A DNA stretch of 39,716 bases from Spirogloea muscicola (lineage: Eukaryota; Streptophyta; Zygnematophyceae; Spirogloeales; Spirogloeaceae), in assembly GCA_009602725.1 (NCBI GenBank), contig WELB01000186.1, positions 36,714-76,429 on the forward strand. Reading direction: 5' to 3'. The notes under the pieces are model-generated. The model made no database searches. It saw nothing but the letters and a program-made list of their open reading frames with translations, and was not told where the DNA came from. How positions within the stretch are numbered: the stretch's first letter is position 1; each line of letters opens with the position of its first letter. This document shows, in pieces, positions 6,343 through 39,716 of this stretch. The translations under genes and the position numbers were made by a program.

Positions 6343-6443
6343 CAGCGCCCGGGCCATGGACCTCTGCAGCGAGACCTCAATGGGCGAGCCCTTTCTTCCA
6401 GGAGACGGCGATGCCTGTGGTTGGCCAGCCCAGTAAAGAGAAA

Positions 6444-17432: not shown

Positions 17433-19731
17433 CAGCGCGAGCGGCGACTCCGTCGCCGCCGAGCAAGGCGGACCCGCAGCAGCAGCGCGAGCGCGAGCGC
17501 GAGCGCCAGGCGACGGACCTCAGGAAGTCCGCCAACAGCGCCTTCCAGACCGTCGAGCGAGCCGCCGCGGTCGCCGCCGCAGCGCCGGCGCCGTCCCCGT
17601 CGCCGACGGCGGCGGAGGCCGTGGCGGCGTGGGGCAACCGCGTCCTGGCGGCGGCGGACCCCGAGGTGTGGGACCTGATCGAGCAGGAGAAGAGCCGCCA
17701 GTGGGCCGGCATCGAGCTCATCGCGTCCGAGAACTTCTCGTCCCAGGTGGGCTCCCCGGGCGCGCTGTTATGGCGGGATCGGCCTCCCTCAAGCTCGTCT
17801 CTCACGGTCACGCTCTCCCGGCCGCCTCGCCGACTTGCTGGACTCAGCTCTGGCTTGGCATCCTCAGGCAGCACTCCTTGCTGGAGCTCCAGCATCTCAT
17901 CCTTACTCACATTTGCCAGCTCCAATGCTCCATGATTGTCCACACCTCTCTGCATAGCGGCTCAAGCGCTCGCTCGCTCAATCCTTCTGCGCCTGCAGGC
18001 GGTGCTGGAGGCGCTGGGCAGCCCGCTGACGAACAAGTACTCGGAGGGGATGGTGGGGGCACGCTATTACGGCGGCAACGCTGTGATAGACAAGGTCGAG
18101 GCGCTGTGCCATGCTCGGGCACTGGCGGCGTTCCGCCTCAGCAGCGACCGGTGGGGCGTAAATGTGCAGCCCTACTCGTGCACGTCCGCCAACTTTGCGG
18201 TGTACACGGCGCTGCTGGCGCCAGGCGACCGCATCATGGGGCTCGACCTGCCGAGCGGCGGGCACCTGAGCCATGGGTACTATACGCCGAGCGGCAAGCG
18301 CATCTCGTCCGCGTCCATATTCTTCGAGTCCCTGCCGTACAAAGTGAGCTCTCAGACAGGGTACATCGACTTTGAGCGCCTCGAGGAGAAGGCGCTCGAG
18401 TTCCGGCCACGCCTGCTCATCTGCGGCGGCTCCGCGTACCCCCGCGAGTGGGACTATGCGCGCTTCCGCCAGATCGCAGACCGATGCGGCGCTCTGCTCA
18501 TGTGTGACATGGCCCACATCTCCGGCCTCGTCGCTGCCCAGGCGCGCCAACCTTGCCCTGCCTCCTTGTCGATGTGACCTCCACGCCAAGTTCTTGTAAT
18601 TTGCTGCCAACGCAAGTTTCTGGACTGTGCCAAGTCGAGGTGCTGAAGTGGTGTATCTCACGTCCGCTTGCAGGAGTGCCGCAGCCCGTTTGAGTTCTGC
18701 GATGTTGTGACGAGCACGACGCACAAGAGCCTGCGAGGCCCACGCGCGGGCATGATCTTCTTCCGCCGTGGGCCGCGGCCGCCGCTCCGTCCCCATCACC
18801 ACCTGCTGCTCCTCGCGTCACCACTGGCGGCACCCTCCTCCCGCTCCCCGTCGGCTGAGGAGCACCAGCCCCACTATGACTACGAGGAGCGCATCAATTT
18901 TGCCATCTTCCCCTCCCTGCAGGGAGGCCCGCACAATCATCACATTGCAGCGCTCGCAGTGGCGCTCAAGGAGGCCGCCAGCGCGCCGTACCGCTTGTAC
19001 ATGGCGCAGGTGCGGCGGAATGCCACAGCGCTGGCGAATGCGCTCATGCGCCGTGGCTGTCGCCTCGTCACAAACGGGACCGACAACCACCTCATGCTCT
19101 GGGACCTTCGCCCGCTGGGCCTCACCGGTGAGCAGGTGCTTTAGGTAACAAGTTTATGCATCGCTGATATGAAACGCGTGGCAAGGTTGGCTCCTGCTGA
19201 GGCTGCTCAGCCTCGTCTGTCTGGTGCTGCTGCGTGGCAGGCAATCGGTACGAGAAGGTGTGCGAGCTCTGCCACATCACCTTGAACAAGAATGCCGTCT
19301 TTGGGGACTCGACTGCCCTTGCTCCCGGCGGCGTGCGCTTAGGTGGTTCCTCGTGGCCCTCTTGTCCTCTTGCTGCTCACTGTCACAAGTTGTCCCGGTT
19401 TTTGGTCAGAAAGTTGATGAGCTGATAGCAAGGCCAGCTCAGTGCCAGTGCACTGTGAGCTCAGAGAGGTGGAGAAGCATGTGCAGGCACGGCAGCAATG
19501 ACATCGCGGGGCTGCAACGAGGTGGACATGGAACGCATCGGGGAGTACCTCGTGCGCGCTGCGCAGATCACGCAGCGCATCCTGCAGGAGCACCCCAAGC
19601 TGCAACGCGAGTTCGTGCGCCGCCTTGAGGCGTGCCCCGACCTGCTTGAGCTTCGTTCACAGGTGACGGCGTTTGCGCGATTACTCCCGATGCCCGGCTT
19701 TGATGCCGCCACCATGAAGTACCGGAATTGA
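17432..19731 (+). CDS. SHMT: Serine hydroxymethyltransferase (5' end in gap)
   Basis: A PLP enzyme interconverting serine + tetrahydrofolate with glycine + methylene-THF; in plants and algae it serves one-carbon supply and, in mitochondria, photorespiration. Exons: <17432-17746, 17999-18541, 18674-19127, 19241-19342, 19487-19731; phases fit. Motifs: [86 protein letters not shown] (Lys binds PLP), [20 protein letters not shown], and [17 protein letters not shown] joined over an intron. Between RRGPRP and YDYEERINF is a low-complexity insert of about 25-30 residues not usual in the family. No ATG is visible upstream; the Gln/Arg/Ala-rich N-terminus may be an organelle-targeting extension. The intron after 18541 appears to use a GC donor. 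Confidence 0.95.
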
Positions 19732-22604: not shown

Positions 22605-22706
22605 ACCGCAAGTGTACCGTATGCGCCTGGCCGTCTCGCTGCAGAGGTCTATGGCCCGTGCGCTGCACCTTCGTGCCGGCAGAGCCCTCGCTGCTGCCTC
22701 TGGCCA
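22605..22706 (+). mobile_element. Family-1 retroelement coding fragment next to a gene start
   Basis: Encodes VYRMRLAVSLQRSMARALHL and the following Ala-rich stretch, as in the long copy at 29556-30739, cut at AAASG. It ends 34 bases upstream of the inferred start of the diphosphatase-like gene (on the other strand), so it sits in that gene's promoter or 5' UTR. Confidence 0.8.
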
Positions 22707-22795
22707 GAAGAAAGCGGCTGCTGATATGAAAGAATCGGCTGTGAAATGCCAGCCAGATGCATACAGGTGTTCATGACGGAGCCAAAGGCTAGGCA
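22707..22795 (+). repeat. Short dispersed repeat shared with 31422-31508
   Basis: Runs from AGAAGAAAGCGGCTGCTGAT to GGAGCCAAAGGCTAGGCAG and is nearly identical at 31422-31508; a reverse copy of its left part lies at about 6475-6515. Its core resembles one arm of the palindrome at 30837-30899 and part of the first exon of the PC-esterase-like genes. Confidence 0.75.
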
Positions 22796-23215
22796 GAAGA
22801 AGGGCTCGCCCATTGAGAATATGGGCTGGAACAGCCAGCCCAAAAAAGAATGAACAGAGTACAAGAAGAGGGGGGGGGAAGCCAGGCGAAGAAAGTGCTC
22901 GCCCATTGAGAATAGGGGCTGGAACAACCAGCCCGAAAAAGAATGAACAGAGTACGAGAAGGGGGCCAGGGGAAGCGCTAAGTAACAGAAACAAAGCTGC
23001 TACGAGACACTCAGTAACCCCTGCTAAGCAGCCGCAGATCAGAGAAGCTGGGCTCCTGGAAATGGGTCCCCTGGCCAGAGCCAGAGGCAGCAGCGAGGGC
23101 TCTGCCGGCACGAAGGCGAAGCCCTAAGGCGAAGCAGCAGAAATGACAAGCACACAAGAAAAAACAAAGCAGCTACTAACCACTCAGTAACCCCTGCTAA
23201 GCAGGCGCAGGTCGG
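22796..23215 (-). mobile_element. Family-1 retroelement copy split by a nested insertion
   Basis: The outer copy (22796-22891 plus 23122-23215) is nearly identical to the uninterrupted copy at 32096-32277. It is broken at AGGCGAAG by the element at 22892-23113. Both hairpin arms and the stretch up to the end of the ORF can be followed. Confidence 0.85.
22892..23113 (-). mobile_element. Nested family-1 retroelement, 222 bases, with 8-base target-site duplication
   Basis: Flanked by AGGCGAAG at 22884-22891 and 23114-23121; the uninterrupted homologue has a single AGGCGAAG (32179-32186). In element orientation it runs from the CCTTCGTGCCGG codons through the ORF end and 3' UTR to GGGCGAGCACTTT. 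It is therefore 5'-truncated, as expected for target-primed reverse transcription. Confidence 0.9.
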
Positions 23216-23225
23216 AGAGGCTATG

Positions 23226-23435
23226 CCAGAGGACCCACTTCCAGGAGCCTAGCATCTCTGATCTGCGGCTGCTTAGCAGGGGTTACTGAGTGATTCGTAG
23301 CTGCTTTGTTTCTTTGTGTGCTTGTTTTTCTTAGCGCTTCCCCTATCCCTGGCCCCCTTCTCGTACTTCGTTTATTCTTTTTTTGGGCTGGCTTTTCCAG
23401 CCCCTATCCTCAATGGGCGAGCCCTTTCTCAATAC
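23226..23435 (+). mobile_element. Family-1 retroelement 3' end
   Basis: Contains the last codons (ISDLRLLSRGY, stop), the T-rich 3' UTR, the hairpin and TATCCTCAATGGGCGAGCCC. It lies head-to-head with the minus-strand copy on its left. Confidence 0.85.
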
Positions 23436-23514
23436 CGCCCCCGAGCAAAGAGCTCAGTAAGAGAGCGGGTCTTCATCGAAGTGGCTGTGGCTGCGAGAAA
23501 GTGCCTCTGCCATG

Positions 23515-24451
23515 GAAAAGTTTCGTGCATTTGATACAAACGAACGCCAAATGGCCAAGTACAAAGGCAAGCACATCTGAAGACCTACATAAGCTACAGC
23601 AGATTGACCCGCTCAGTAACCACGGGTCAATACATGAAGGTCGCTAATTGATGCCTGAATACTAGATGGCAGATACGAAGCCCTTCTGCCACCAAATAGA
23701 GGTCGCCCAGCTTTCTGGTGCAAAGCATTAGCCTGAGCACGCTGCAAACAGGCCGAAACGCGTCGTCGCAACAACGACAGATATGCAGCTGGCAAGCCCA
23801 TCTCAGCCGGGAACACATCTGCATGTCGTGTGTAGCCTAGATTGGTAATATTCTGAAGGAGAGTGTTTAGACGAGGACCTGAACAGCCAAAGATGGCGAC
23901 TGCCGCTGGCAGGAGCTGATTGCATTGGGGGTAATTGGAGTAGTGCTGCAGCTTTTCTTTGTTCAGCACTGCCCACTGCGTGGCCAGCGATGTGTGTCGA
24001 TGCTGGACCCTTTGTAGGCCTCCGTAACAACAATCGACCAAGGCCCGTGGTCCTCTACCAGGTTGCATGCCCACAATGTCAAGTGTGCGGCGGTGAGGAC
24101 GTCCCTGGGCATCCGTGATGGTAGGCATGACGTTGTTCACTTCCACGAGCGCACAGTACCCGGCGTCGCGCATCAAACCCGCCAGGACATCACGGAGGAG
24201 GTTGTAGATGCCCACCACTTCCGGTCAGTGGGGCAACGCAGCATGTGAGTGGCGAGCTCAGCAGCCTCTGCACGGAAGCCACACTCACACTGGCGCACCC
24301 CAATCAGGCAGTTAGGTGGGTGGCCGAGGAAGAGTTGAAGCGACGTCCAAAAGGCATCGGAGCTGAAGCTGAAGGCGTTGGCGACGGCGTAAAGGGCCAA
24401 AGGCTGTGAACAGCCAGCCCGAAAAGACTTGACAAGGTCCGAAGGGGCCAA
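23515..24451 (-). pseudogene. Degenerate non-LTR retrotransposon ORF end, family 2
   Basis: Two overlapping frames encode the C-terminal part of the same type of ORF as the copy at 29556. First comes a zinc finger (PPNCLIGVRQCECG ... ATHMLRC), then after a frameshift near 24215 a nuclease-like block with RRTLDIVGM, PRALVDCCYG and NKEKLQHYSNYP. It ends SISDLHVLTRGY and stop. The RxxD, VD and K residues fit a restriction-like endonuclease fold; this is inference from spacing. The 3' UTR (to about 23515) differs from family 1 but recurs at 39130-39270. The 5' end is truncated; sequence before about 24451 does not continue the ORF. Confidence 0.75.
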
Positions 24452-25004
24452 AAAGGGCCTTCCCCAAAGCTTTCTCGGTAGGATGATTACTTAGTGACCT
24501 CTATGTAGGAGCCGCTAATCGGAAAGACTAGCCGCAGGAAAGCAATCCCCTTGACGAATGCCAGAGGCTGCAGCTAGAGCACGGCCAGTACGCAGATGCA
24601 GGCGTGGGCCATGGACCGCTGATCCACTTGAGTAGCTTGCTAAGCACGAGATGACATTTGGTCTTGCATCTACTCACAGAGGCGAGGCGGTATGGTGCAC
24701 GTAGGATATAAGCCCAAACGCCAAAGAACTAATGTATACCAGCAGATCTTCTGTGCACATAGTTGCTGAGATGGTTGTTGTGGCGCAGAGTGCGAATGCC
24801 TGTGTCTCAGTGAAGGTAAGGCTCACGGTGCAGCCACATGGAGCCTGTGGCAGTGGCACCTCAGTCCCTACTACCTGCTTTTGCGTGAGCTTGCCAAAGA
24901 AAGCTGCTCCACCAATCTTAGTGATGACTGCCTCCTTGGTTGGACACTGCAAGTCAAAGCTCGTACAAGCTAGTGGAACATTCAGCTAGCAACTTGTAAC
25001 GAAG
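24452..25004. other. Intergenic, no recognised gene
   Basis: Holds one minus-strand open frame of 92 codons (24674-24952) with no similarity I recognise and no duplicate in unit B. I do not call it a gene. Unit A of the segmental duplication starts at its right edge. Confidence 0.5.
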
Positions 25005-26182
25005 TGATGTGTGAGCATGGCCACACTGCATCCAAAGTACGACTGACGGAATGCAACCCTGCATCTCACCTATCGTTCTTCTTTTGGCTTGCTGAGCAAT
25101 CGCGGAATTGCCAGAATGACTATAAAGGGGTTGAGCAAGTCACTAAATCCAGCCGCTGTCGAAGCAAGATGTGTCGGAAAGGCAATCAAAGAGGGTTGCA
25201 ATGCCAATACAGCACAACAAAGACTGAAGGTCGGAGGTCCGGAATTCCAGAGGGTGGCTGAAGTAATCACTATTTATCCCAACTCAGGTCCTCCCTATGC
25301 AGCCGACGGGCTTCCAGCACACCGGCCCTTTCCAGCCCTTATGCTCAAAGATCACCATTGATCTCGGCGATTGACGATTTATTAAGTGCGCCAACAGTAT
25401 GTTTCATCGGTCCCCCGCCACCGGGTTACCAACGGTCCGACGTCAATGGCCCGTCACTGACCCATCAACGGCCGATTACAGTCTGCTACCAACGGACTAG
25501 AATCATGGGTCTAACGTCGACATCCAACATCAACGACCACTTTCGGTCCTGTTTAGGTAGTCTCCACCTTAGTCGCCTCTTGTCGCCATCTCCGATGAGG
25601 TTCCTAGTCTCTTCAAGCATCTGTTAACCCGTCTTCCCTGCTGCATTGATTCTGAGCATGTGACCATCGTTACAATGGGTGCATCTGAAAAGCCACACAC
25701 TTACAGCTATGAGGAGAAGCTCGATTGCCGTTGCTGCTCGTGCAACTCTAGCTCAAGACTGGGCTTGACATTTTGAGGATGATACATGATGCAGGCCGAC
25801 ATCATGGGCCAAGGAAGTTGTCGTGATAGATGACAGTGTCAGCTGAAAGCTGGGGTAAGCCTTGGACGAAGTCAGGAAGGTTCAAGGACACGACGGACAT
25901 GCTGGGAGCCCAATTAGTAGTGCTCGTACCTTCTCACAGCTCAAAGCTGCATTTATATCTCAGTCTAATTCTGGATTTACCGTCTCAAGTTTGACGCAAG
26001 AGGATGATCATGCTTGCAGGTCCTGGCCTATAAATGGACAAGCAGAAAGGCCTCCAGCACCTAGTAACTGGGCGCAAGTGAAAGCACTTTTCTGTTGCAT
26101 GTGCCAGAATTTCTGCTGCACTCATGCACGCACGCACACTTTCACTATGAAGCAAGGGACTTCATGCTGCTACAAATTCTTG

Positions 26183-29172
26183 TCACCAGAACATGGGCAC
26201 ATTGAATTCTGGTGCTGGATGTCGAGCAAGATCCAAGCAGTGCCCAGGGGCCAGGCCCTTCTTGCAGAGAACTGCTGCAGCAGTGGTATAAAGTGAGTCC
26301 ATGACAGGAAGCCACCAGTCGACCATGTTCCCAAAATGCGTGCAGTCGCGCCTCGGTTTCTCAAGATGCGTTTGGTGGAAGCCATGCATGTCCATCTGCC
26401 AGTAGACTGGCTGGACAGATAGATTGCGACGATCGGCCTCTGCTTGCAGGACCTCGTTTCTCCACAACTGCGAGAGGCATTTTGGTGGGCTTTGCAGGTT
26501 CAGCCACATGGATCAGCCTTGACTCCTGAGTAGACTTTGCTTGCCTGTTACAAAGTACACAAAAGCCTGGAATGCCATCAACCATTACTACTCTAGGCTA
26601 CTGCCCTGCTTTTCTCATCCCACTTCACAAGAGCTTCGCTTCTGACGAACTTAGTGCTTCCCAGGGGTCCAGGCATCAAATTACTCTATCGTGGTGTTAG
26701 AGGAGGATGCACCTTGCGGAAGGGGAGACTAAGACAGAGGTAACTAAGACAGAGGTCAATGCGAAGGCATGAAGTCAAATCTTGTACCTGCCGTGTCTTG
26801 TTTCGAGCAGGGTAGCAGACGCTCGTCTCTTCAGCCGTTGCATCCGCCGGCATGGGATAGTCGCCAGAGCCGTCACGGGAGAAGAAATGCTGGGGAAGGG
26901 TCTCGCGAAAGAATGCTGCCTTGCCGGGTTGGCGCTGGAGCTCCTCCATGCGCTTACCCAGTACGGCTAGGTCATACCTTAGGTCCTCCACACTAGTGTG
27001 CCCATAGTGGATGCCCAAATTCGAGATGACCTGCAAAGACGACTCAGTGCAAGATATTGATGTCAGAGGCCATGATATGGTCTTGCTCTATACACCGTCT
27101 GCTGCCATTGCAGATTGATGGCACATCAATCACAAGAAGTGGACTGCTGACTACGAAGATTCAGGATTGCATGGCTAAATCTGCCAATTCGTCTCACAAC
27201 TCTCCAATCTGCAGCGATGCAATCTGACAGCCTCCAGATGACAGCGTAGTGAGCTGCTGACCACGTCATATTCACGAAACACATAGTCCAGATGACTGGT
27301 GAAGAGGGAATCAGGCTCTGGCCTCTCTCCACGTCTAGTAGGAGCCAAATGATACGCTGTCATCCAGGGAAAAAGAAATAGCTATTGAGAAAATTGTATA
27401 TGTTAAAGATGAACCCATGTGGACCTTCTATAGTAATCTCTACAGATGCCTTGGCTGGAGCACTATATTCCAGATTTGCACGTTATTGTGTATTACTTTC
27501 TCACAATATCTCTCCATACTTGCTACCAAAACACCCCCTCCCTCCTGAAAGCCTGATTAAGTTGCGCTTTCTGAGGAGCTAACAAAGAGATAAACTGCAG
27601 ATGCTTCTGTCCTACTGCCTGCCAAACACAAAGATACAAGAATGGGACTGCTGTCATCTTCAAATGAGAGCATCTAGAGTGAAGTCAAGGCCAGAGGAGG
27701 GCCTCTCGGTGTCATAAGCACCTCGCCAATATGACCACGTGGCCCCCTCAAAAGGACCATGTAAGGTAGCATTCAGGACCCAGGTCTCCTCCCTCCAAGG
27801 CTTTCGTACAGTTGTTTGCTTGGCCAGCATCTGCTCCACACTGTCCGTAAGACTCATGTTGAAGAAGTACCTGGATAAAGGGGAGACGATGTGCAGGGTG
27901 TTTAACTGGAAAAGCCCCTGTGATGCCATGATGCCACCCGTGTCCTCAGCAGCGATATGTGACAGGCAACAGTTCTCTATCCTGTGACACCAGTATAGAT
28001 ACGACCAATCACTGTAACCTGAGGTTCCTCTGTCATGGGAGTACAGTCTCTGCAATACATGGGGGACTTATGGTGACCCCAGAGTGGCCTGAGCCAATGG
28101 TGACGACGTGCCTAACGCAAACTGCAAGGGTCTGAGAGAGCACTGGCGTGCTTACTCCATTGTAGGCCCCTCTATAAGACTTCCATAACCAAGAGTCTGA
28201 AGGGACTTGCCAAACAGCCTGTAGACTTGGGCGGTCAATGAATCCCCGATTAGCGCCACCTTCAGACCTTTGAAAAGCTGCCACACAGGAGCAAGGCACA
28301 CGATGGCGTCACTCAATGAACGACGTAGAGGATCAAACGTCAGCAGCGCTCTGTGGATTGGTCTGAGTGGCATCGAGCAAGCTGTGGTGGACACAAATTA
28401 ACGTGACCAAGTGCGGCCACTCACAGCTAGCAGAACCTCTACCTTTGAGTTGCACTGCATGGTCATCCGGGGCAGTTGTGACAAACCGATGTGGCACTCA
28501 GACAAGGTGCTTCTGTTGAGCGCCAAGCACTTAGTCTAGCAATCTCCCAATGGCTCACTTCATGGCCATAGGCTACTGCCAATAGCAGTGACAGCAGTCA
28601 CGAGCAGGCAGTGACAGTCTTGTTCCCATACTCACTGAGGGTGGTCGCCAGGAGTATGACAAACGAGATGTGCTCACCAGGGCGACATCAGCAGCATTGT
28701 AGACACGAGAGCCATCGGTGTGGATGAACGCGAAGTGGCCATGCTTTATGTAGGCATCGTCTGGGTCGACGAAGGACTTAAGATCGCTGTGGGCGATGGG
28801 CCCCACCCACTTGAAAAGCGCCGGTGGCCGCCGTGCCAAGATCGGGGGAGCAGCAGGCCCTCCCATCTGCTGGCTGGCTTTCACGGCCGCTCTTTCGATA
28901 TTAGCAGCCGCATTGTTCATCTGCTCGACCAGCGACCTGCGCAGACGCAGCTTGCCCAGCCGCAGGGAGCCGCGCCTTGCCTGCCGCCCAGTCGCTCGGC
29001 CGCGCTGCCAATGAGCAAGCCCTGCGTAGGCTTGGCACGGATCCCGCGATCGCACGACGGCAGCATGGCGGCCGACCTCCAGCAGGTCGCCGGCAGTCCA
29101 GCTGCTCAGGCACAGCAGGGTGAGGCAGAGAAGCGGCCGCCGGCGCAGCAGCAGCTCTTGCTGCCCCATCAC
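26183..29172 (-). CDS. PC-esterase/SGNH-hydrolase-like protein, copy A
   Basis: Likely a secreted or Golgi acyl-esterase/acyltransferase-like protein of the PC-esterase (TBL/CAS1-related) group. Confident minus-strand exons: 28678-29172, 28156-28381, 27722-27870, 26788-27030, 26183-26467; likely exon 27262-27454; a small exon near 28443-28530 is unresolved. A hydrophobic signal peptide or anchor (LLCLTLLCLSSWTAG) follows an Arg cluster. Then come KVALIGDSLTAQVYRLFG (GDS nucleophile block), YFFNMSLTDSVEQMLAK, FREYDV/VISNLGIHYG across an intron, FFRETLPQHFFSRDGSGDY, and RRDCTHFGNMVDWWLP with the D-x-x-H of the catalytic triad. The family call is from these motifs; the substrate is unknown. The exon at 27262-27454 does not keep phase with its neighbours and differs by one base from copy B, so this copy may be damaged or mis-sequenced beside a T/C homopolymer. 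Confidence 0.72.
28870..28926 (-). repeat. Exon 1 segment similar to a dispersed repeat
   Basis: Encodes the NNAAANIERAAVKASQQMGG segment of copy A. The DNA is close to repeats at 22707-22795, 31422-31508, 30837-30870 and (reverse) 6475-6515; copy B has it at 37384-37440. Either a repeat became coding or an element captured part of this exon. Confidence 0.6.
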
Positions 29173-29372
29173 GGTCGTTGTGGCAGCCCCAGGCGGGGCT
29201 TTGCCGGATCCTGAACGGCCGCAGGGCCTCTGAGATCGTCACGAGCTCTTGGGGATCTCTGCCTTAGTACTTGGCCACTCAGGCCTTCCGTCACTCCATA
29301 CACACTCCATTGCTCTGTGAACGGTGGGGCAGCGCAGGCGGCCCCCGAGCAGGCGGCTGCCGGAGCTAGCCG

Positions 29373-30536
29373 GTGGCAGTGGGTTCTGCCATCATGGATA
29401 CCAGCGCCGCCGCCGCAGCAGCCGCAGCCGCCGAATGTGGAGGTCGCCGAGGGGCGGCTCGCCTGCCCCGCGCCGCGGCAGTGCGGGTCAAGCACCCGGC
29501 GAGGCGGCCGAGAGGCGCGCGCTCGAAGGCCGCGCGGCAGAGTCCGAGCGGCGGCATGGCCGGCCAGGCGGTCTCCTTTGCGCACCTCGCGCACACCGCT
29601 GACCTGCGCGTCCAAGCGCGCTTCGCGGCCGTCGTCGACAAGGCCGCCTACACCACCGCCGTGCTGCAGCTTCCTGAGGCTGACCTGCGCGGGCGCGCGA
29701 GACTACATTCGGCCTCCTCCCCGGGGGCAGCGGCGTGGCTCCAGGCACTCCCCATCACTGACGCTCTGACCCTCCCAGATGAGGTGTTTCGCACTGCCGT
29801 CCACCGGCTCCTGGGGCTGCCGCCTCCATGCCTCCAGGGCGTGCGTCAATGCCAGTGTGGCGAGCGAGGGGCCAAGCCTGGCGAGCTGGCTGCTCACGTC
29901 CTGCGCTGTTCCCATGGCGGCGAGAGGACGGCGGCCCACGACCGCCTCCGGGACGCGATGCACAGCATCCTGGTGGAGGCTGGCTTCGCGGTGGCAGCGG
30001 AGCACTCCGGCGTCATGCCGCTCCAGGCCAGGGCCGACGGTCTCCACGCTCGTCGCGTCGACCTGGTGGCCACCCCACAGGCCGGCGGGCCACGTCTGCT
30101 TCTGGATGTGGTGACTACCGACGCATTTGACCGCTCCCACCCAGCCCAGTCTGCCACCAAGGCTGGGTATGCGGTCGCCTGCGCCGCTCGGGCAAAAGAG
30201 ATCAAGTACGCCGACCATCCACCGGAAGACGAGTTCTTCCCGTTGGCAATTGACATCCATGGGGCACTGGGCGCTCGGTGGCTTGAGCTACTTAACCAGC
30301 TCGCCCGCCACGCAATCGCCCGTCGCTTCCATGGTGAACCGGTAGACTTTCCTGCAGCCGGGTCGCTGGCGCAAGTGTATCGCATGCGCTTGGCCGTCTC
30401 GCTGCAGAGGTCCATGGCCCGTGCGCTGCACCTTCGTGCCGGGAGAGCCCTCGCTGCTGCCTCTGGCTCTGTCCAGGGGACCCACTTCCAGGACCCTAGC
30501 CTCTCTGATTTGCGGCTGCTTAGCAGGGGTTACTGA
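29373..30536 (+). pseudogene. Open frame fusing host sequence to a retrotransposon nuclease end
   Basis: 387 codons are open. The first 61 (Ala/Arg-rich) come from the duplicated intergenic sequence also found in unit B. From codon 62 (base 29556) the frame is the C-terminal part of a non-LTR retrotransposon ORF. It contains a CCHC-like finger (CQCGERGAKPGELAAHVLRC), then HARRVDLVATP, LLLDVVTTD and AKEIKY, spaced like the R-x-D/D/K residues of restriction-like endonucleases of R2- or Dualen-type elements. It ends LSDLRLLSRGY. The reverse transcriptase part is absent because the insertion is 5'-truncated. Probably not a functional gene, though the fusion is in frame. Confidence 0.8.
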
Positions 30537-30739
30537 GTAATTTGCAGCTGCTTTCTTTCTTTGTGTGCTTTGGTTTCTTAGCGCTTCCTCTGGCTTCCTC
30601 TGGCCCCCTTCTCGTTCTTTGTTCATTCTTTGTTTCTGTTACTTAGCGCTTCCCCTGGCCCCCTTCTTGTACTCTGTTCATTCTCTTTCGGGCTGGTTGT
30701 TCAGCCCCTATTCTCAATGGGCGAGCACTTTCTTCTTTT
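29556..30739 (+). mobile_element. 5'-truncated non-LTR retrotransposon, family 1, longest copy
   Basis: 1184 bases between direct repeats GAGCGGCGGC (29546-29555 and 30740-30749). Unit B has one copy of the site (GAGCGGTGGC, 38054-38063) and no element. The 3' UTR is unusual: after CTTTGTTCATTCTT a second, slightly different UTR (TGTTTCTGTTACTTAGCG onward) is appended. This suggests template switching between two subfamily RNAs or two successive insertions. Confidence 0.9.
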
Positions 30740-30836
30740 GAGCGGCGGCTGCGGCCTGGAGGGAGCGAGGGAACGTGGGAAAGGCGGTGGGGGGACGCCG
30801 CTGCTGATGCACCTCTGGATGCACCTGGCTGGCATA

Positions 30837-30899
30837 CAGCCGCCCTTTCGATATCAGCAGCCGCATATTTCTTCTGCTGCTGATGTAAGGAGGCGGCTG
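30837..30899. repeat. Imperfect palindrome, unit A
   Basis: CAGCCGCC ... GGCGGCTG outer arms and ATCAGCAGC ... GCTGCTGAT inner arms around a T-rich centre, about 63 bases. The same structure in unit B is at 38194-38256. Confidence 0.8.
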
Positions 30900-30919
30900 T
30901 GAAAGGCAGCCTATTGCAT

Positions 30920-31190
30920 CCGGAGAATGAGCTCATCCCACAGGGGGCGATGGCTGTGAGAGGCCGGCCTGGTGTGGTGGACAAGGTTCACAAGGAGAAA
31001 GAGAGAGGGCGCGCGGTGCACGGGAATAAAAATCGAGGCCAACTCAAGCCATTACACTGTTCGGGCAAATGCTAGTGGGATTGCACAGAGCGAAGCCCCA
31101 CGCCAAGGAGGGCTAGAGTAACAATGCGACAGCAGGCTGTTGGGTCCTTCACGAGTGAGCACATGCAAAGCCGACAGGCTAACAGGCTAC
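30920..31190 (-). mobile_element. Retroelement 3' end, family 3 (unit A)
   Basis: On the minus strand the end of an ORF (LSALHVLTREG) is followed by a third type of 3' UTR, through GTGTAATGGCTTGAGTTGGC to CTCACAGCCATCGCCCCC. The unit B counterpart is at 38290-38520 and decayed pieces are at 13430-13560. Kinship with families 1 and 2 rests on the shared SDLxxLxR ending. Confidence 0.55.
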
Positions 31191-31421
31191 CTTGGGGAGC
31201 CGGAACACCGCTATGGAAGTCAGTGGCCTGGCGTAGTGCGTGCGGAGGAAGTTCCAAAGGGGCGCGGAAAAGCATGGCAGTGAAAAGGCCCCGAAGAAAA
31301 TGGACAAGATCCCCCTTTTTCTCCGGGCGAGCACCTTCTTCTTGAAGGGGCCGGCAAGCCGAGAGATCAGGGGGAGGTTGGAGAGAAATGGCTCGCCCAT
31401 AGAAAACGAGAAAGGTCCACA

Positions 31422-31508
31422 GAAGAAAGCGGCTGCTGATATGAAAGAATCGGCTGTGAAATGCCAGCCAGATGCATACAGGCATTCATGACGGAGCCAA
31501 AGGCTAGG
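31422..31508 (+). repeat. Short dispersed repeat shared with 22707-22795
   Basis: Near-identical to 22707-22795, with the same boundaries AGAAGAAAGCGG and GGCTAGGCAG. Located in sequence private to unit A. Confidence 0.75.
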
Positions 31509-31523
31509 CAGGCAGGGCGCCCT

Positions 31524-31690
31524 CAATACCCCCGTGTCAGCAGTAGGAAGTCAGATGAGCTGAGGGGAGGAAGAGCAACCCCGCTGCGCAAGCCAGAGGC
31601 TGCTGCAAGGGCGCGACCAGCGCGGCGGTGCAAAGCAAGCGCTTGGGAGCGCTGCAGGGACATAGACAATCGCATACAGTAGCAGGACAG
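31524..31690 (-). mobile_element. Diverged retroelement ORF end
   Basis: Encodes MRLSMSLQRSQALALHRRAG and ends SSSDFLLLTRGY with a stop; clearly related to the family-1 C-terminus but strongly diverged. No matching 3' UTR recognised downstream. Confidence 0.65.
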
Positions 31691-31727
31691 AGAAACAGAG
31701 AAGAGGGGGTTGGAGAGAGTTTGCACG

Positions 31728-31918
31728 ACCCTTCCAGGACCCTAGGATCTCTGATCTGCGGCTGCTCAGCAGGAATTACTGAGTCATTCGTAGCTGCTTT
31801 GTTTCTTCTTGTGCTTGTTTTTCTTAGCGCTTCCCCTGGCTCCCTTCTCGTACTTTGTCCATTCTTTTTTGGGCTGGCTGTTCCAGCCCCTATCCTCAAT
31901 GGGCGAGCTCTTTCTTGC
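31728..31918 (+). mobile_element. Family-1 retroelement 3' end
   Basis: Last codons in decayed form, T-rich 3' UTR, hairpin GGGCTGG/CCAGCCC and TATCCTCAATGGGCGAG. The stop region reads CAGCAGGAATTACTGAG, so the final Arg-Gly-Tyr codons have mutated. Confidence 0.8.
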
Positions 31919-32095
31919 ACGAGGCGGAGCCGGGCCGCGGGCCGGGCAATCAGGACCAACTCCGTGCCAGCAGAAGTCGGGGGGTGGGGGGGGGCGGAGA
32001 CGGAAGCGGGATGCCGGTGGAAGGGGCTGGGGCAGCGGCCAGCCGTCCACCTGCGCGCCACGTTCCGAGGTGGGTAGGGAGTCCGCCCTGGAAGA

Positions 32096-32277
32096 AGGGC
32101 TCGCCCATTGAGAATATGGGCTGGAACAGCCAGCCCAAAAAAGAATGAACAGAGTACAAGAAGAGGGGGGGGGAAGCCAGGCGAAGCCCTAAGGCGAAGC
32201 AGCAGAAATGACAAGCACACGAAAAAACAAAGCAGCTACTAACCACTCAGTAACCCCTGCTAAGCAGGCGCAGCAGG
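32096..32277 (-). mobile_element. Family-1 retroelement 3' end (uninterrupted homologue of 22796-23215)
   Basis: Nearly identical to the outer copy at 22796-23215 but without the 222-base nested insertion. It lies in the junction between duplication units A and B. A further plus-strand coding fragment (HLRARQSPRCCLWLWPGDPL region) is at about 32440-32515. Confidence 0.85.
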
Positions 32278-33201
32278 CCCTGGAAGGGGCTCGGCCCGGG
32301 GCAGGGGGCGCCCGCCCGGCCAAGTGGCGGGCGACGCCGCCGTTGAAGGGGGGGGCGAAACGGCCGGGGCAGGGCCGGCCCGCGGGCCGCGGGCCGGCCG
32401 GGGACCGACTGTTCCTCTCTGACACTTCCAGGAAAAGGCGATCGCGCTGCACCTGCGTGCCCGGCAGAGCCCTCGCTGCTGCCTCTGGCTCTGGCCAGGG
32501 GACCCACTTCCATTGAGACAGTTTGGTGCGTGAGCACGGCCACACTAAATCCGAAGTACGATTGACGGAATACAAACCTGCACCTCACCTATCCTTCTTC
32601 TTTTGGCTTGCTGGTCAATGACGGGATTGCCAGAGACTGACTATTAGGGGGTTGAGCGAGTCGCTAAGCCCAGCCGCCTACGATATAAGACAAGTTGAGA
32701 AGGCAATCACAAGGGGCTGCAATGGCAATACAGCAAAAGAGACCAAAGGTCAGAGGACCAGAGGTCCAGAGGGTGGGTGAAGGACTCACCATACTCCTCC
32801 TCTCGTGTCCTCCCTATACAGCCTACGGGCTTCCAGCACCCCGGCCCTTCCCAGCCCTTATGCTCAACGATCACCAATTAACTTGTGCTGAATACCTGTT
32901 GATTGAATTGACAGTCTACTCCACCAGTCTCCCGCCACCAGTCTACCAACGGTCCGCCGTCAATGACCCCGTCACTAACCCGTCAACTGACAATTGCACT
33001 ACTAACGGGCTAGCGCATCAATGTCAATGTCAACAACCACTTTTGGTACTGGGTAGGTAGTCTTCACATTAATCGCCTCTTGTCGCCATCTCCAGAGTTA
33101 GCACCATGCTGTCTCGCACCATGACTCCGGGTTCCGCCGCTCTTGGCTCGAGGAAGCAGACCAACTTCTCATCCGTCCGCCTGATGAGGTTAGGTGCCTA
33201 G

Positions 33202-34048
33202 TGTAGCGTTTGGTCCCTAACTGGCAGGTTAGAGCCGAATGCGTCCTCTTTGTTGTTTGTATTTTCTTAGCGCTTCCTCTGGCCCCCCTTCTCGTACTTT
33301 GTTCATTCTTTTTTGGGCTGGCTTTTCCAGCCCCTATCCTCAATGCGCGAGCCCTTCTCTTTGGGAGTGAGTGCTTGGGGATTTAGGGACAACCACCCGC
33401 CACGAAAGAGCACTCCGGCACAGTGGAAGACTTGCCCCGTGGCGCTGCCGCCAGGCAGCAGCTCCACCTCCTGGGCACGCGCTGCAGACTTGCCTCTAGC
33501 GGGACGCCGCCAAGGTCCCCAAAGCGAGCCGGCAACGAGCCGCGCGGGGCAGCGGTCTACGCAGCCCAGCAGGGCTGCGCCTCTCTCGTAGCTTCACTGA
33601 GTCCCCGGCCTCCCGTCGGGTCTCCCTCTGCTCCGTGCAATAGTAAGTGCTTCTCCGTGTCACCCTCCAGGGTGTATGGGGTCCGCCCCATAGGCTCACC
33701 CACGAGGAGCGTGCCTGACGAGGGCACCACGAGCTGTCTCCAGCAGGCGCCACGGCGCCGAGCATGGCCGAGACCGGGCATGGCCGAGCATGGCCGAGGC
33801 GGTCCATGCCGCCGGGGGCGTCCGGGCCCACGCATGCCGCCGAGCATGACGGGAGCATGCGAAGTCATCCGGCCGAGCCTGGACGGAACGAAAATAGCAC
33901 GAGTGCCAGGTCGGCACCGTACCGTCTGGCACGGGAAATAACGGCCAAAAGACCTGGGCAAGTTCCGGCGAACTTGCCCACAACTATTCGAACACCTTGG
34001 TAAGCGTCAACAACACTTTTTGGCGCTCACAAACCTGGGAACGTTACA
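33202..34048. mobile_element. Solo LTR with 5-base target-site duplication
   Basis: 847 bases beginning TGTAGCGT and ending ACGTTACA, flanked by CCTAG at 33197-33201 and 34049-34053. Unit A has a single CCTAG at the equivalent place (25603-25607). TG...CA ends and a 5-base duplication are the marks of an LTR retrotransposon; one LTR without internal genes suggests a solo LTR. Open frames inside have no recognisable similarity. It also contains a family-1 retroelement 3' end (about 33249-33362). Confidence 0.82.
33249..33362 (+). mobile_element. Family-1 retroelement 3' end inside the LTR
   Basis: Contains CTTAGCGCTTCCTCTGGCCC, the hairpin GGGCTGG/CCAGCCC and TATCCTCAATGCGCGAGCCC. It is a 5'-truncated insertion of about 110 bases nested in the solo LTR. 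Confidence 0.8.
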
Positions 34049-34321
34049 CCTAGTCTCTTCAAGCATCTACCAAATCGGCTTCCTGGCTGCATTGATACTC
34101 TAAGCATGTGAGGGAATTTACTGTGGGTGCATCTGAGAAGCCACAAACTTATAGCGATGAGAAGCTCGACTGCCATTGCTGCTCGAGCAACTGTAGCTCA
34201 AGATTGGGATGACAATTTGAGGATGATGAACGGTGAAGGCTAACATCATGGGTCAAGGAAGCTGTTGTGATGAATGACAGCGTCAGCTGAAAGCTGGGGT
34301 AAGCCTTGGACGAAGACGGGA

Positions 34322-34402
34322 AAAAGGGCTCGCCCATTGAGGATATGGGCTGGAACAGCCAGCCCAAAAAAGAATGGACAAAGTACAAGAAGGGGGCTAG
34401 GC
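34322..34402 (-). mobile_element. Very short family-1 retroelement insertion (81 bases)
   Basis: Only the 3' hairpin and flanking UTR remain. Flanked by GACGGGA at 34315-34321 and 34403-34409; unit A has GTCAGGA at the equivalent site (25871-25877) and no insertion. An extreme 5' truncation. Confidence 0.85.
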
Positions 34403-34715
34403 GACGGGAGGGTTTAAGGACACGACGGACATGCTGGGAACCAGATGAATAGTGCTTGTACCTTTCCACAGCTCGAGGCTGCAATTTGGTATCTAACTTG
34501 AATCTGAATCTAATGAGTCAAATTGATGTAAGAGGATGATCATGCTTGCAGGTCCTGGACTACGAGTGGCAAAGCAGAGAGGCCTCCAGCACCTTGTGAC
34601 TGAAGGCAAGTGAAAGCGCTACTCTGTTGCATGTGCCAGACTTGCTGCTGCACTCATGCACGCACGCACACTTTTCACTATGGAGCAAGGGACTTCATAC
34701 TGCTACAGATTCTTG

Positions 34716-37685
34716 TCACCAGAACATGGGCACATTGAAGTGCGGTGCTGGATGCCGAGCAAGATCCAAGCAGTGCCCAGGGGCCAGGCCCTTCTTGCAA
34801 AGAACTGCTGCAGCAGTGGTGTAAAGTGAGTCCATGACAGGAAGCCACCAGTCGACCATGTTCCCCCAATGCGTGCAGTCGCGCCTCGATTTGTCGAGAT
34901 GCGTTTGGTGGAAGCCGTGCATGTCCATCTGCCAGTAGACTGGCTGGACAGATAGATTGCGACGATCGGCCTCTGCGTGCAGTTCCTTGTTCCTCCACAA
35001 CTGCGAGAGGCATTTTGGTGGGCTTTGCAGGTTCAGCCACATGGATCAGCCTTGACTCCTGAGTAGACTTTGCTTGCCTGTTACAAAGTACACAAAAGCC
35101 TGTAGTCCCATCAACGTGCATTACTACTCTAGGCTACTGCCCTGCATTTGTCATCCCTCTTCACAAGAGCTTCGCTTCTGACATACTTAGTGCTTCCCAG
35201 AGGTCCAGGCATCAAGTCACACGACGGTGGCATTAGAGGAGGCTGGGCCTTGAGGAGAGGAAGACTGAGACAGAGGTGACCATGGTCAAGGCAAAGGCAT
35301 GAAGCAGCTCAAGACTTGTACCTGCCGTGTCTTGTTTCGAGCGGGGTAGCAGACGCTCGTCTCTTCAGCCGTTGCATCTGCTGGCATAGGATAGTCGCCA
35401 GAGCCGTCACGGGAGAAGAAATGCTGGGGGAAGCTTTCGCGAAAGAATGCTACCTTGCCGGGTTGGCGCTGGAACTCCTCCATGCGCTTACCCAGTACGG
35501 CCAGGTCATACCGTAGGTCCTCCACAACATTGTACCCATAGTGGATGCCCAAGTTCGAGATGACCTGCAAAGACGACTCAGTGAAAGAAATGAGGTCTGA
35601 GGCCATGATATGTTCTTGCTCTATACACCGTCTGCTGCTATTTCAAATTGATGTCATACAGATGACGGCACATCAATCACAAGAAGTGGATTGCTGACCA
35701 CAACAAAGCAGAATTGCATAGCTCCGATCTGCCAATCTGTCTCGCAGCTGTCCAATCTAGAGCGATGCAATCTGACTACAGATGACAGCATAGTGAGCTG
35801 CTGACCACGTCATATTCACGGAACACATAGTCCAGATGACTGGTGAACAGGCAGTCACCGTCTGGCCTCTCCCCACGCATACTAGGAGCCACTTTATACG
35901 CTGTCATCCAGGAGTAAAATAGCCCTTGAGACTTTTTCCAGATGTCAAAAGTGAACACAGATGGACCGTCTACAATCATTCTGATCGCATGCCTTTGCTG
36001 GAGCACATTTTTGTGCTCTTTACTTTCTCATGGCATCTATTCATTCTTGCTACCAAAACACCCCTTCCTCCCCAAAGCCTGATCAAATTGCGCCTTCTGA
36101 GGAACTAACAAAGAGATACTCTGCAGATGCTTCCGTCCTACTGCCTGCCAACACAAAGATACAAGAAGACTTTGTGACTGCTGTCATCTTCTAATGATAG
36201 AAATCTAGAGTGATGTCCAGAGGAGGGCCTCTCAGCATTATAATCACCTCGCCAATATGACCAGGTGGCCCCCTCAAAAGGACCATGTAAGGTAGCATTC
36301 AGGACCCAAGTCTCCTCCCTCCAAGGCTTTCGTACAATTGTTTTCTTGGCCAGCATCTGCTCCACACTGTCCGCAAGAGTCATGTTGAAGAAATACCTGG
36401 AGAAAGGGGAGGCGATGTGCACGGTGTTTGATTGGAAAGGCCAGATGATGCCATAATGCCACCCATGTCCTCAACAGCAATATGTGAAAGGCAATATTCC
36501 TCTGTCCTGTCTATTGATAAGATCAGTCACTGTAATCTGAGGTTCCTTTGCATGGGAATACAGACTCTGCAATGCATGGGGGACCTACGGTAACCCCAGA
36601 GTGGCCTGAGGCAACGAGGTGCCTAATCTACACTGCAATGGACTGAGAGAGCGCTGGCGTGCTTACTCCATTGTAGGCCCCTCTATCAGACTTCCATAAC
36701 CAAGAGTCTGAAGGGACTTGCCAAACAGCCTGTAGACTTGGGCAGTCAAGGAATCCCCGATTAGCGCCACCTTCAGACCTTTGAAAAGCTGCCATCCAGG
36801 AGCAAGGCACACGAGCGCGTCACTCAATGAACGCGTAGAGAATCAAACGTCAGCTCCGCTAGTAGGTGGAATAATCTGAGTGGCATTCTGAGCAAGCTGT
36901 GGTGGACACGAGTGAATGTGACCGACTGCAGCCACCCACAGCTAGCAAATCTCTAATTTTGAGTTGCACTGCATAGTGATATGGGGCAGTTATGACATAA
37001 CGATGTGGCATTCAGAAAAGGTGCTCATGTTGAGCGCCAAGCACTTGGTCCAGCAATCTCCCGACGGCTTACTTCATGGCAATTGTTACTGCCAGTAGCA
37101 GTTAACAGCAGTCACGAGCAGGCAGTGACAGTCTTGTTCCCATACTAATTGAGATGGTCGCCGGGAGAATGACAAACGAGCTGTGCTCACCAGGGCGACA
37201 TCAGCAGCATTGTAAACACGAGAGCCATCGGTGTGGATAAATGCGAAATGATCATGCTTCACGTTGGCATCATCTGGCTTGATGAAGGACTCAGTATCGC
37301 TCTGGCTGATGGGCCCCTCCCACTTGAACAGCGCCGGCGGCCGCCGTGCCGAGGTCGGGGGAGCAGCAGCCCCTCCCATCTGCTGGCTGGCTTCCACAGC
37401 CGCACTTTTGATATCAGCAGCCGCATTGTTCATTCGCTCGACCAACGACCTGCGCAGACGCAGCTCGCCCAGCCGCTGGGAGCCATGCCTTGCCTGCCGC
37501 CCAGTCGCTCGGCCGCGCTGCCAGTGAGCAAGTCCTGCATAAGCTCGGCACGGGTCGCGCGGTCGTCCGGCGGCAGCATGGCGGCCCACCGCCAGCAGGT
37601 CGCCGGCAGTCCAGCTGCTCAGGCACAGCAGGGCGAGGCAGAGAACCGGCCGCCGGCGCAGCAGCAGCTCTTGCTGCCCCATCAC
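34716..37685 (-). pseudogene. PC-esterase/SGNH-hydrolase-like, copy B, probably a pseudogene
   Basis: Paralogue of the gene at 26183-29172. Exons: 37191-37685, 36667-36896, 36248-36396, 35806-35997, 35322-35564, 34716-35000. The GDS block, NLGIHYG, FFRESFPQHFFSRDGSGDY and DCTHWGNMVDWW are all still readable. But exon 36667-36896 is 230 bases against 226 in copy A. A one-base deletion near 36831-36834, just before the GDS block, puts TGA codons in both joining frames. The exon at 35806-35997 also differs by one base. The small exon region around 36955-37050 has lost the copy A donor (AAAGGT changed to AAAATT). Exons 1, 4, 6 and 7 keep copy A lengths. Confidence 0.75.
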
Positions 37686-38193
37686 GATCGCTCGCGCAGC
37701 CCCAGGCGGGGCTTTGCAAGATCCTGAGCCCCCGCCGGGCCTCTGAGATGGTCACAAGCTCTCGGTGGTCTCTGCCTTTGTACTTGGCCACTCAGGCCCT
37801 CCACTCCACAGACAATCCGTTGCTATGCCAACGGGGGGCCGGCGCTGGCGGGCCCCGAGCAGGCGGCTGCCGGAGCGAGCAGGTGCGAGGAGGCGGCGCC
37901 CTCATAGAAGCCAGCGCCGTTGCTGCCGAAAGCCGCAGCCGCTGAGTCGAGGCGCCGCCCCGCAGCTCGCCTGCCCCGCACCGCGGCAGTGCGGGTCGAG
38001 CACGCGGCGAGGCGGTCAAGAGGCGCGCGCTCGAAGCCGCACGCCGGAGCGCCGAGCGGTGGCGGCGATGGTGGCGGCGGCGGCGGCGGCGGCGTACCGG
38101 AGGGAGCGAGGGAATGAGGGGGGCGTCGGTGGGGGGACGCCGCAGGTGCTGATGCACCTGTATGCACCGCTGTATGCACCTGGCTGGCTGTTA

Positions 38194-38256
38194 CAGCCGC
38201 TCTCTTGATACCAGCAGCCGCATCTCTTTTACGCTGCTGATGTAAGGAGGCGGCTG
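38194..38256. repeat. Imperfect palindrome, unit B
   Basis: Counterpart of 30837-30899, with outer arms CAGCCGC/GGCGGCTG and inner arms CCAGCAGC/GCTGCTGA. Confidence 0.75.
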
Positions 38257-38289
38257 TGAGAGGCAGCCTACTGCATCTGGAGAATGAGA

Positions 38290-38520
38290 CTACTTTGTAC
38301 GGGGCGATGGCTGTGAGAGAGCGGCCTGGGGTGGTGGAGAAGGTCCAAAAAAAGAACGAGAGAGGGCGTGCGGTGCACAGGAGATAGAGGGAGGGCAAGT
38401 CAAGCCTGCACACTATTCAGACAGATGCTAGGGGGGCTACACACAAAAGCGAAGCCCTATGCTATGGAGTAACAGCGCGGACGCAGACTGGAGGGGTACT
38501 TCACGAGCGAGCACATGCAA
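38290..38520 (-). mobile_element. Retroelement 3' end, family 3 (unit B)
   Basis: Minus-strand ORF end LSDLHVLAREV followed by the same 3' UTR type as 30920-31190. Copied with the segmental duplication. Confidence 0.55.
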
Positions 38521-38848
38521 ATCCGACAGGCTAAATGGGGGAGCCGGAGCATTGTCATGGAAGTCAGGGGCCTCTGGCTTAGTGCGCACAGGAGAGGTGA
38601 TGCAAAAGAGGTGATGCAAAGGATGGCAGTGAAAATGCTTCGAAGAACGTGGACAAGGTCCCGAAGGGGCTGGAAAGCGGAGAAGATCAGAGGGAGTTTG
38701 GAGTGCAGTGTCACGAGGGGGGCCGGGCCGCGGGCCGGGCAACCAGGGCCGACATCGGAACCGCCCTGTCAGCGGCCACGGCGAGAAACAGAGGCCAGGG
38801 AGGGGGGCGGGATGGCGGTGGAAGCGGGTGGGGCAGCCGCCAGCGAGA

Positions 38849-39058
38849 CACTCAGTAACCCCTGCTAAGCAGCCGCAGATCAGAGATGCTGGGCTCCTGG
38901 AAGTGGGTCCCCTGGCCAGAGCCAGAGGCAGCAGCGAGGGCTCTGCCGGCACGAAGGTGCAGCGCCCGGGCCATGGACCTCTGCAGCGAGACGGCCAGGC
39001 GCATTCGATACACTTGCGCCAGCGACCCGGCTGCAGGGAAGTCAACCGGCTCCCCACC
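38849..39058 (-). mobile_element. Family-1 retroelement ORF end
   Basis: On the minus strand encodes GEPVDFPAAGSLAQVYRMRL through SISDLRLLSRGY and stop, then ends after about ten bases of UTR. It matches the long copy at 29556-30739 closely. It lacks the 3' hairpin, so it was cut by later rearrangement. Confidence 0.8.
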
Positions 39059-39129
39059 CGCCAGCCGACCACCGGCGCGCCACGGCCCGAGAAAAAGGTG
39101 GGTGGCGAGGCCCGATCCCCGCCCGGGAA

Positions 39130-39270
39130 AGGAAAATTTCGTGTATTTGAAACAAACATAGGCCAATGGCCAAGTACAGAGGCAAGCAAGCACATCCAAA
39201 TATCTACATAACCCACAGCAGGTTGACCCGCTCAAAATCCACGGGTCAAAACATAAAGGTCGCTAACCGA
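39130..39270 (-). mobile_element. Family-2 retroelement 3' UTR
   Basis: Matches the 3' UTR of the degenerate element at 23515-23640 (shared blocks CGGGTCAA, TGACCCGCTC, TGGCCAAGTACA, ACCTACATAA-like). Only remnants of the ORF end remain. Confidence 0.65.
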
Positions 39271-39289
39271 TGCATGAATGCCCGGGAAA

Positions 39290-39440
39290 GGAAGAAAGGG
39301 GGCTCCGCCCGGTCAGGGGCGGCCAGCCGGCCCAATCGGCGGGACGCTTCGCTGCCGCCGGGGGGCCACCGGCCGGGGCACGGCCGGCCCGCGGGCTGCG
39401 GACCGGCAGGTCGCCGGCCGGTCCCCTCTCCCTCTCCTCT
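39290..39440. repeat. GC-rich repeat shared with about 32275-32420
   Basis: Both contain CGGCCGGGGCA, GGCCGGCCCGCGGGC and a GCCGGCCGGGG/GGTCCCC edge. Function unknown; it could be part of another element. Confidence 0.5.
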
Positions 39441-39502
39441 CCCCCCTCCTCTCTTTCTCTTGTCTCTCTCCATCCCTCCTCACTCTCTCCCTCCACCGAA
39501 AA

Positions 39503-39716
39503 AAGGGCTCGCCCATTGAGGATAGGGGCTGGACAAGCCAGCCCAAAAAAGAATGAACAAAGAACGAGAAGGGGGCCAGAGGAAGCCAGAGGAAGCGCTA
39601 AGAAACCAAAGCACACAAAGAAAGAAAGCAGCTACAAATCACTCAGTAACCCCTGCTAAGCAGCCGCAAATCAGAGAGGCTAGGGTCCTGGAAGTGGGTC
39701 CCCTGGACAGAGCCAG
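39503..39716 (-). mobile_element. Family-1 retroelement, running off the window
   Basis: 3' UTR with hairpin and the end of the ORF (LSDLRLLSRGY, then the codons for GTHFQ). Almost identical to 6144-6342; continues beyond the window. Confidence 0.85.

Follow-up and report, generated by a model that had tools for sequence, protein, structure and literature searches.

The window, meaning the whole stretch of Spirogloea muscicola DNA that was analysed (39,716 nucleotides), is probably a graveyard of truncated copies from at least four related non-LTR retrotransposon families. Their proteins would have ended in a zinc-finger-like motif (the finger), a restriction-like endonuclease (RLE) and a SDLxxLxRG[Y/H/F] tail, and their 3' UTRs would have diverged rather than been swapped. 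The protein ends are homologous and keep their motifs in the same order, the copies have variable 5' ends, flanking duplications and empty sites, and two of the families (F1 and F5) have a 3' core in common. The most likely source is an element of a known kind, not one assembled from swapped parts.

Truncated copies and their insertion sites

Self-comparison of the window finds a tandem duplication, with arm A at 25005-32420 and arm B at 32524-39429. The main match between the arms (25875-29555 and 34407-38063) is 85.5% identical over 3722 columns. Five further pairs lie to either side of it:

25005-25593 (arm A) and 32524-33093 (arm B)
25603-25878 (arm A) and 34049-34322 (arm B)
30742-31313 (arm A) and 38083-38662 (arm B)
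31918-32043 (arm A) and 38712-38844 (arm B)
32286-32420 (arm A) and 39299-39429 (arm B)

Since an element can be present in one arm and absent in the other, the duplication supplies natural empty sites, which makes the window unusually easy to read. The host DNA includes a frame at 17936-18574 that matches serine hydroxymethyltransferase chains in the PDB, the best being 'Serine hydroxymethyltransferase 7' (7qx8, E 2e-96). This is a plant enzyme, which points to a green-lineage host, probably an alga. A multi-exon gene on the reverse strand is seemingly present in each arm (25991-29240 and 34523-37751), and its scanned pieces have no match in Pfam. Some of its motifs we take to be reminiscent of plant PC-esterase proteins. 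A stretch like the 3' end of family F4 lies within an open frame of this gene in both arms (28871-28926 and 37385-37440).

The F1 family, with c1 as its longest copy, has these parts and copies:

29556-30739, forward strand: c1, 5'-truncated; its reading frame stops at 30536 and the 3' UTR follows
29850-29909, forward strand: finger of c1, C-x1-C-x12-H-x3-C
29910-30350, forward strand: putative restriction-like endonuclease core of c1, with E, R-x-D-x14-D and K-E-I-K-Y (features after the available text of PMC5678591)
30378-30533, forward strand: conserved C-terminal tail of c1, ending SDLRLLSRGY
30660-30735, forward strand: 3'-terminal core of c1 with hairpin
22892-23113, reverse strand: copy c4, nested in another F1 copy, whose two parts are c5 (~22797-22891) and c16 (~23114-23222)
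31729-31914, forward strand: copy c6, tail SRNY; 8-bp duplication TTGCACGA, p=0.0085
32095-32276, reverse strand: copy c7; 10-bp duplication GCCCTGGAAG, p=0.0012
34322-34402, reverse strand: copy c9, a 3' end alone; 7-bp duplication GACGGGA, p=0.035
38845-39057, reverse strand: copy c11, the protein tail up to 7 nt beyond the stop; the remaining 3' UTR and the hairpin are missing
39499-39716, reverse strand: copy c10, extending past the end of the window

The initial annotation had placed its first family at 30480-30739. This is indeed an F1 copy, but only the tail of the longer insertion at 29556-30739. That insertion is flanked by a 10-bp target-site duplication, GAGCGGCGGC (p=0.0015; left copy 29546-29555, right copy 30740-30749), and its site is empty in arm B at ~38063-38083.

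Flanking repeats were scored for 12 candidate insertions against random window positions; the breakpoints had been chosen by eye, and the p values are uncorrected. Duplications of 7-14 bp (p<=0.035) were found in seven of the 12: c1, c4, c6, c7, c9, F2b and a short F4 tail at 6.5 kb. The remaining five (c8, c5/c16, c3, F2a and c2) have no convincing duplication in this test (p 0.11-0.82). No two of the seven duplications have the same sequence. They therefore show no fixed target, and in particular no single specific one of the sort expected of the mostly site-specific R2, R4, CRE and NeSL elements.

Empty sites were found for c1, c9 and c11 in the opposite arm and for c4 in a paralogue. The site of c9, which lies in arm B, is empty in arm A at ~25875. 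The nested copy c4 has an 8-bp duplication, AGGCGAAG (p=0.0097), and c7 is an uninterrupted paralogue of its c5/c16 host copy, with 98-100% identity over the two parts. The 3' ends of 10 aligned F1 copies have a mean column identity of 88% and the 5' ends are scattered. Variable 5' ends, flanking duplications and empty sites support the view that the truncated insertions are non-LTR retrotransposon copies, as the initial annotation had proposed.

If these families work as known LINEs do, the RLE would nick a target of no fixed sequence and reverse transcription would start from the 3' terminus of the element's RNA, copying from the nick. As it would mostly halt early, the result would be short copies flanked by 7-14 bp duplications. 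For F1 and F5, the RNA end that is recognised would probably be the conserved 3' core with its GGCTG..CAGCC hairpin, whose function is presumed. The copy c11 counts against this explanation, as it lacks the 3' end that it should need. It is flanked on both sides by an 8-bp repeat, CCGCCAGC, read from the sequence, and its site in arm A is empty; it may record an internal start of reverse transcription. Three F1 pieces are exceptions to the common 3' end and lack it: c11 and those at 22607-22704 and 32444-32512.

The copies c10 and c2 (6145-6322, reverse strand) are 99.4% identical over 178 bp, which points to recent F1 movement or to homogenisation. Inverted pairs of F1 copies with their 3' ends outward occur at 23127-23429 and 6144-6398. 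Such pairs would follow if reverse transcription were primed from both nicked strands.

The C-terminal protein and its families

Besides F1, the window holds the following copies and one doubtful member:

23514-24385, reverse strand: F2a, second family; 5'-truncated and frame-shifted, with 3' UTR
24233-24385, reverse strand: finger of F2a
23616-24224, reverse strand: nuclease region and tail of F2a
39135-39279, reverse strand: F2b, a short second F2 copy, ending LTRGF-stop, then 3' UTR
31420-31681, reverse strand: F4, third family; tail ..SSSDFLLLTRGY-stop at 31526-31681 (52 aa), plus 3' UTR
24390-24601, reverse strand: F5, fourth family; tail at 24494-24601 (36 aa, one internal stop), ending RLLHRGH-stop
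30870-31195 (arm A) and 38210-38545 (arm B), reverse strand: 'family 3', doubtful; a 10-residue tail match and a 3' region
6478-6520, forward strand: F4-type 3' tail within an F1-type 3' UTR; 7-bp repeat AGCTTCA, p=0.034

The F1 protein (326 aa, 29556-30533) was compared with the two frames of the frame-shifted F2 copy, taken separately. The two families are homologous across the C-terminal ~200 residues (28% identity over 205 aa, E=3e-22) and around the finger (48% over 52 aa, E=5e-15), each E value being for a single comparison. They end in SDLRLLSRGY-stop and SDLHVLTRGY-stop, variants of the SDLxxLxRGY that had been noted from the letters alone. The F2 tail is 45% identical to that of F1, the F4 tail 63% (52 aa) and the F5 tail 69% (36 aa). 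The residues before the stop are RGY in c1, F2a and F4, RGF in F2b and RGH in F5.

F2b has a 14-bp duplication, GCCCGGGAAAGGAA (p=0.0012), and is 82% identical to F2a over 151 columns. The F4 3' UTR has a second copy at 22705-22796 (98% over 92 bp). An N-terminal extension of F2 at 24386-24490 was considered and dismissed, because this stretch resembles F1 3' ends and protein similarity to F1 begins only at 24385; it is more likely the F5 3' UTR read in frame.

The proposal of at least three families sharing a C-terminus stands for F1 and F2 and is weak for family 3; F4, F5 and F2b have been added. The protein match of family 3 covers ~10 residues without RGY and without a stop (tblastn E 0.96 and 3.9). 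It is rejected as an independent family since nothing matches beyond these ~10 residues, and its two places are a single locus duplicated with host DNA in both arms, not two insertions.

Several very small pieces were also seen. Those at 31314-31343, 6376-6398 and 6478-6520 correspond to the last 20-45 nt of an F1 or F4 element, and the one at 31314-31343 is in arm A and missing from arm B. At 24386-24390, 31385-31420 and 38600-38640 a truncated copy of one family sits immediately behind the 3' end of a different family, both in the same orientation. These junctions perhaps reflect preferred insertion at pre-existing 3' ends.

A LINE RLE is a variant of the PD-(D/E)XK nucleases whose K corresponds to the first of the two in KX2KY, on the second helix (PMC5678591, available portion). 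The same portion gives as its marks a knuckle of the CCHC type, an H and a K at the first helix (RH in the case of R2Bm), a D/E that ends strand 1 and GXW after strand 4. In R2 the second K of KX2KY is described there as less conserved, and KXRINALP or a similar motif lies upstream of the knuckle. F1 has the H, the E, the D without P, a second D after 14 residues, KEIKY, and LQALP upstream; GARW occupies the place of GXW. F2 has the E, D-x14-D as in F1, and KLQHY; a Y replaces the helix-1 H and the W of GXW is missing. The P of PD is missing in both. The finger is CX1CX12HX3C in F1 and CX1CX11HX3C in F2, and the published spacing in that portion is CX2-3CX7-8HX4C.

A regular expression for the nuclease residues took the published features as its model, but it was written post hoc and loosened for the observed finger and for the H position of F2. 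Without the finger it finds two ORFs in the window, F1 and F2, and none in 100 dinucleotide shuffles. With the finger it finds the F1 ORF alone, again with none in 100 shuffles; F2 is missed since it is frame-shifted. The finger and the R-x-D, D and K residues claimed in the initial annotation are present in F1 and F2 alike. With most of the published LINE RLE features in place, the sequence supports its assignment of the C-terminus to a restriction-like endonuclease, and the region would presumably have been catalytically active.

A Pfam scan of 18 window ORFs (8 and 10) gave nothing above the cut-off and no match to a reverse transcriptase (RT), an RNase H or an endonuclease at E<=1; the two matches under the cut-off are neither RT nor nuclease. 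Since the copies are 5'-truncated, no RT is expected in them, and the parent elements presumably encoded one. AlphaFold models of the C-terminal protein have mean pLDDT of 36.8 and 47.2, which is too poor for use. A Foldseek search with the 47.2 model gave a best E of 0.74, with no restriction-endonuclease fold recognised among the best 50 matches. Because of the low confidence of the models, no structural claims are made.

A sequence search of the PDB gave one match for F1 (E 1.8), which is not relevant, and none with a profile. A viral contig collection holds no relatives of the F1 protein, the F2 protein or the tail alignment A6, a genome contig collection has no match to A6, and a degenerate F1 3'-end pattern has no match in either collection. 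Since these contigs are viral or prokaryotic, a eukaryotic element is hardly expected there.

The 3' ends and the competing explanations

The F1 3' core is ~75 nt long and contains GGGCTGGCTGTTCCAGCCC or close variants. F1 terminates in GCCCTTT(CTTCTT), a short pyrimidine tail with no clear repeat. The window has 25 occurrences of the hairpin pattern GGCTGN{4,9}CAGCC, where 100 shuffles gave 1.52 on average and never more than 5. F1 copies account for 10 of these occurrences; among the remaining 15, some correspond to each other between arms A and B. A hairpin alignment of 13 rows has five invariant columns, with one row (F3B_mid) visibly misaligned. The F5 3' UTR contains GGGCTGGCTGTTCACAGCC. 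Rfam gave no match at the gathering thresholds.

The 3' ends were compared by local alignment against 1000 shuffles; the stretches had been picked by eye beforehand, so the z values are inflated. F1 and F5 have a common core (z 8.1) that includes the GGCTG..CAGCC hairpin. The F1-F4 comparison is marginal (z 2.0, p 0.048), as is F1-F3 (z 2.2 and 1.5, p 0.044 and 0.098). No similarity is found between F1 and F2 (z 0.2 and 1.1, p 0.37 and 0.16) or between F5 and F2 (z -0.5 and -0.6). The 3' UTRs had been called unrelated, which holds for F1 and F2 and fails for F1 and F5. A covariance model built from F1 ends gives no significant match to F5 (E 0.19) or F4 (E 0.26 and 2.8).

A piece at 13.3 kb scores z 6.3 against F1 and 11.2 against F5. 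Three hairpin-bearing 3'-core pieces on the reverse strand at 13275-13720 score z 8.3 to 11.2 against F5, with no protein tail recognised. A fourth piece at 13400-13480 is like F1 (z 5.0) and unlike F5. The pieces at 13275-13720 are likely to be additional families.

Ranked by how similar their 3' ends are to F1, the families run F5, F4, F2, and tail identity ranks them alike: 69% and z 8.1 for F5, 63% and z 2.0 for F4, 45% and z 0.2 and 1.1 for F2, from three families only. Therefore ordinary divergence, faster in the 3' UTRs than in the protein, is the simplest explanation for their differences, and swapping is unneeded. The simplest account is that the families nearer F1 have a conserved 3' recognition element. 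A comparable pattern is described in a plant L1 group, where the mean difference is 0.144 across the final 45 nt and 0.570 across the full sequence (PMC3747384, accessible part).

The initial annotation suggested modular exchange of the RT-recognised 3' end. In such a scheme a single protein lineage would repeatedly have gained new tails of this kind, whether through template switching or through nested insertion of a tail from one family into the 3' UTR of another. The F1 and F2 3' UTRs are unalignable beyond chance, an F1-like terminus follows F4 at 31385-31416, and at 6447-6530 an F4-type tail with AGCTTCA flanks (p=0.034) sits inside an F1-type 3' UTR, so mixed tails do arise. However, this 6.5-kb mosaic is most simply a nested insertion, the F1/F5 core is common to both families and the similarity drops with protein divergence. 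F5, the family closest to F1, keeps the core and the hairpin, and it is the most distant, F2, that has no recognisable similarity. Modular exchange is thus very unlikely. It is also improbable that c1 is a complete element of ~1.2 kb, encoding the finger-nuclease protein alone and mobilised by the RT of another element. An ATG is the first codon past the left duplication of c1 and RT is absent from the 18 ORFs scanned; the open frame upstream of 29556 is flanking DNA and is neutral on this point. Against it, LQALP before the finger resembles the post-RT linker KXRINALP of R2-type proteins in the published excerpt, and the other F1 copies start further 3' at differing points, which is typical of truncation.

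A third alternative amends the divergence of truncated RLE families rather than replacing it. The elements could be LINEs with a degenerate or repurposed C-terminal domain, in which an N-terminal APE nuclease makes the cut. The available part of PMC4640811 describes elements that combine an APE with an RLE (Dualen), and the missing P of PD, the odd finger spacing and the loss of two conserved flanking residues in F2 would fit such decay. However, the D, D, K and Y are retained in both families at ~28% identity, so this reading is a minority possibility. Divergence of ordinary RLE families remains the preferred explanation.

Relation to known elements

The families are likely to belong to the RLE LINEs (CRE, R2, R4, NeSL with Utopia, and HERO). 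As far as the available portions of PMC5678591 and PMC4640811 describe them, these elements also have a finger followed by an RLE at the C-terminus, D...D...KX2KY, an ALP motif upstream and a fixed 3' end of their insertions. F1 and F2 differ in the finger spacing and the missing P of PD, and RT is not seen in the window copies. Placement in a clade would need the RT; by description Dualen/RandI and HERO are candidates. HERO includes many non-specific elements in the same portions, and the window families likewise have no single target. Dualen/RandI elements occur in green algae, have an RLE and lie outside the four mostly target-specific RLE clades, according to the accessible text of PMC4640811, PMC3747384 and PMC8226300. 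However, the 3' ends of RandI are repeats such as (ATT)n and (CTATTT)n in all eight families tabulated in the available part of PMC3747384, whereas F1 has its short pyrimidine tail. On the other hand, (CTTT)n forms the end of a SINE that is paired with RandI-2 (same part).

The clustering Zepp/ZeppL elements of green algae are similar in being LINEs that cluster (PMC8226300 and PMC3747384, in the parts available). Zepp is an L1 with a poly(A) 3' end; F1 has an RLE-like C-terminus and no poly(A) in 10 aligned ends, and since poly(A) is missing, Zepp is unlikely. The stringent plant L1 group resembles the window families in a terminal hairpin region conserved across diverged families (PMC3747384, accessible part). 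That group is L1, whereas here the hairpin is convincing only in F1 and F5 among the tail-bearing families.

Among the matches listed in a literature search, by title and abstract opening, no publication describes the F1, F2, F4 or F5 families, which is no proof of absence. It is tentatively possible that they form an unnamed clade of probably green-algal, non-target-specific RLE LINEs with a SDLxxLxRG[Y/H/F] tail and, in part, a 3' hairpin core. The tail and the hairpin might act jointly in recognition of the element RNA.

As it stands, the window holds ordinary, well-documented truncated LINE copies. If longer copies agree, they would define a probably green-algal lineage of RLE-type LINEs with loose targeting and a conserved 3' hairpin. 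Such a lineage, if borne out, would help to judge whether RLE LINEs acquired loose targeting on more than one occasion, and how the RT-recognised RNA end evolves alongside the protein.
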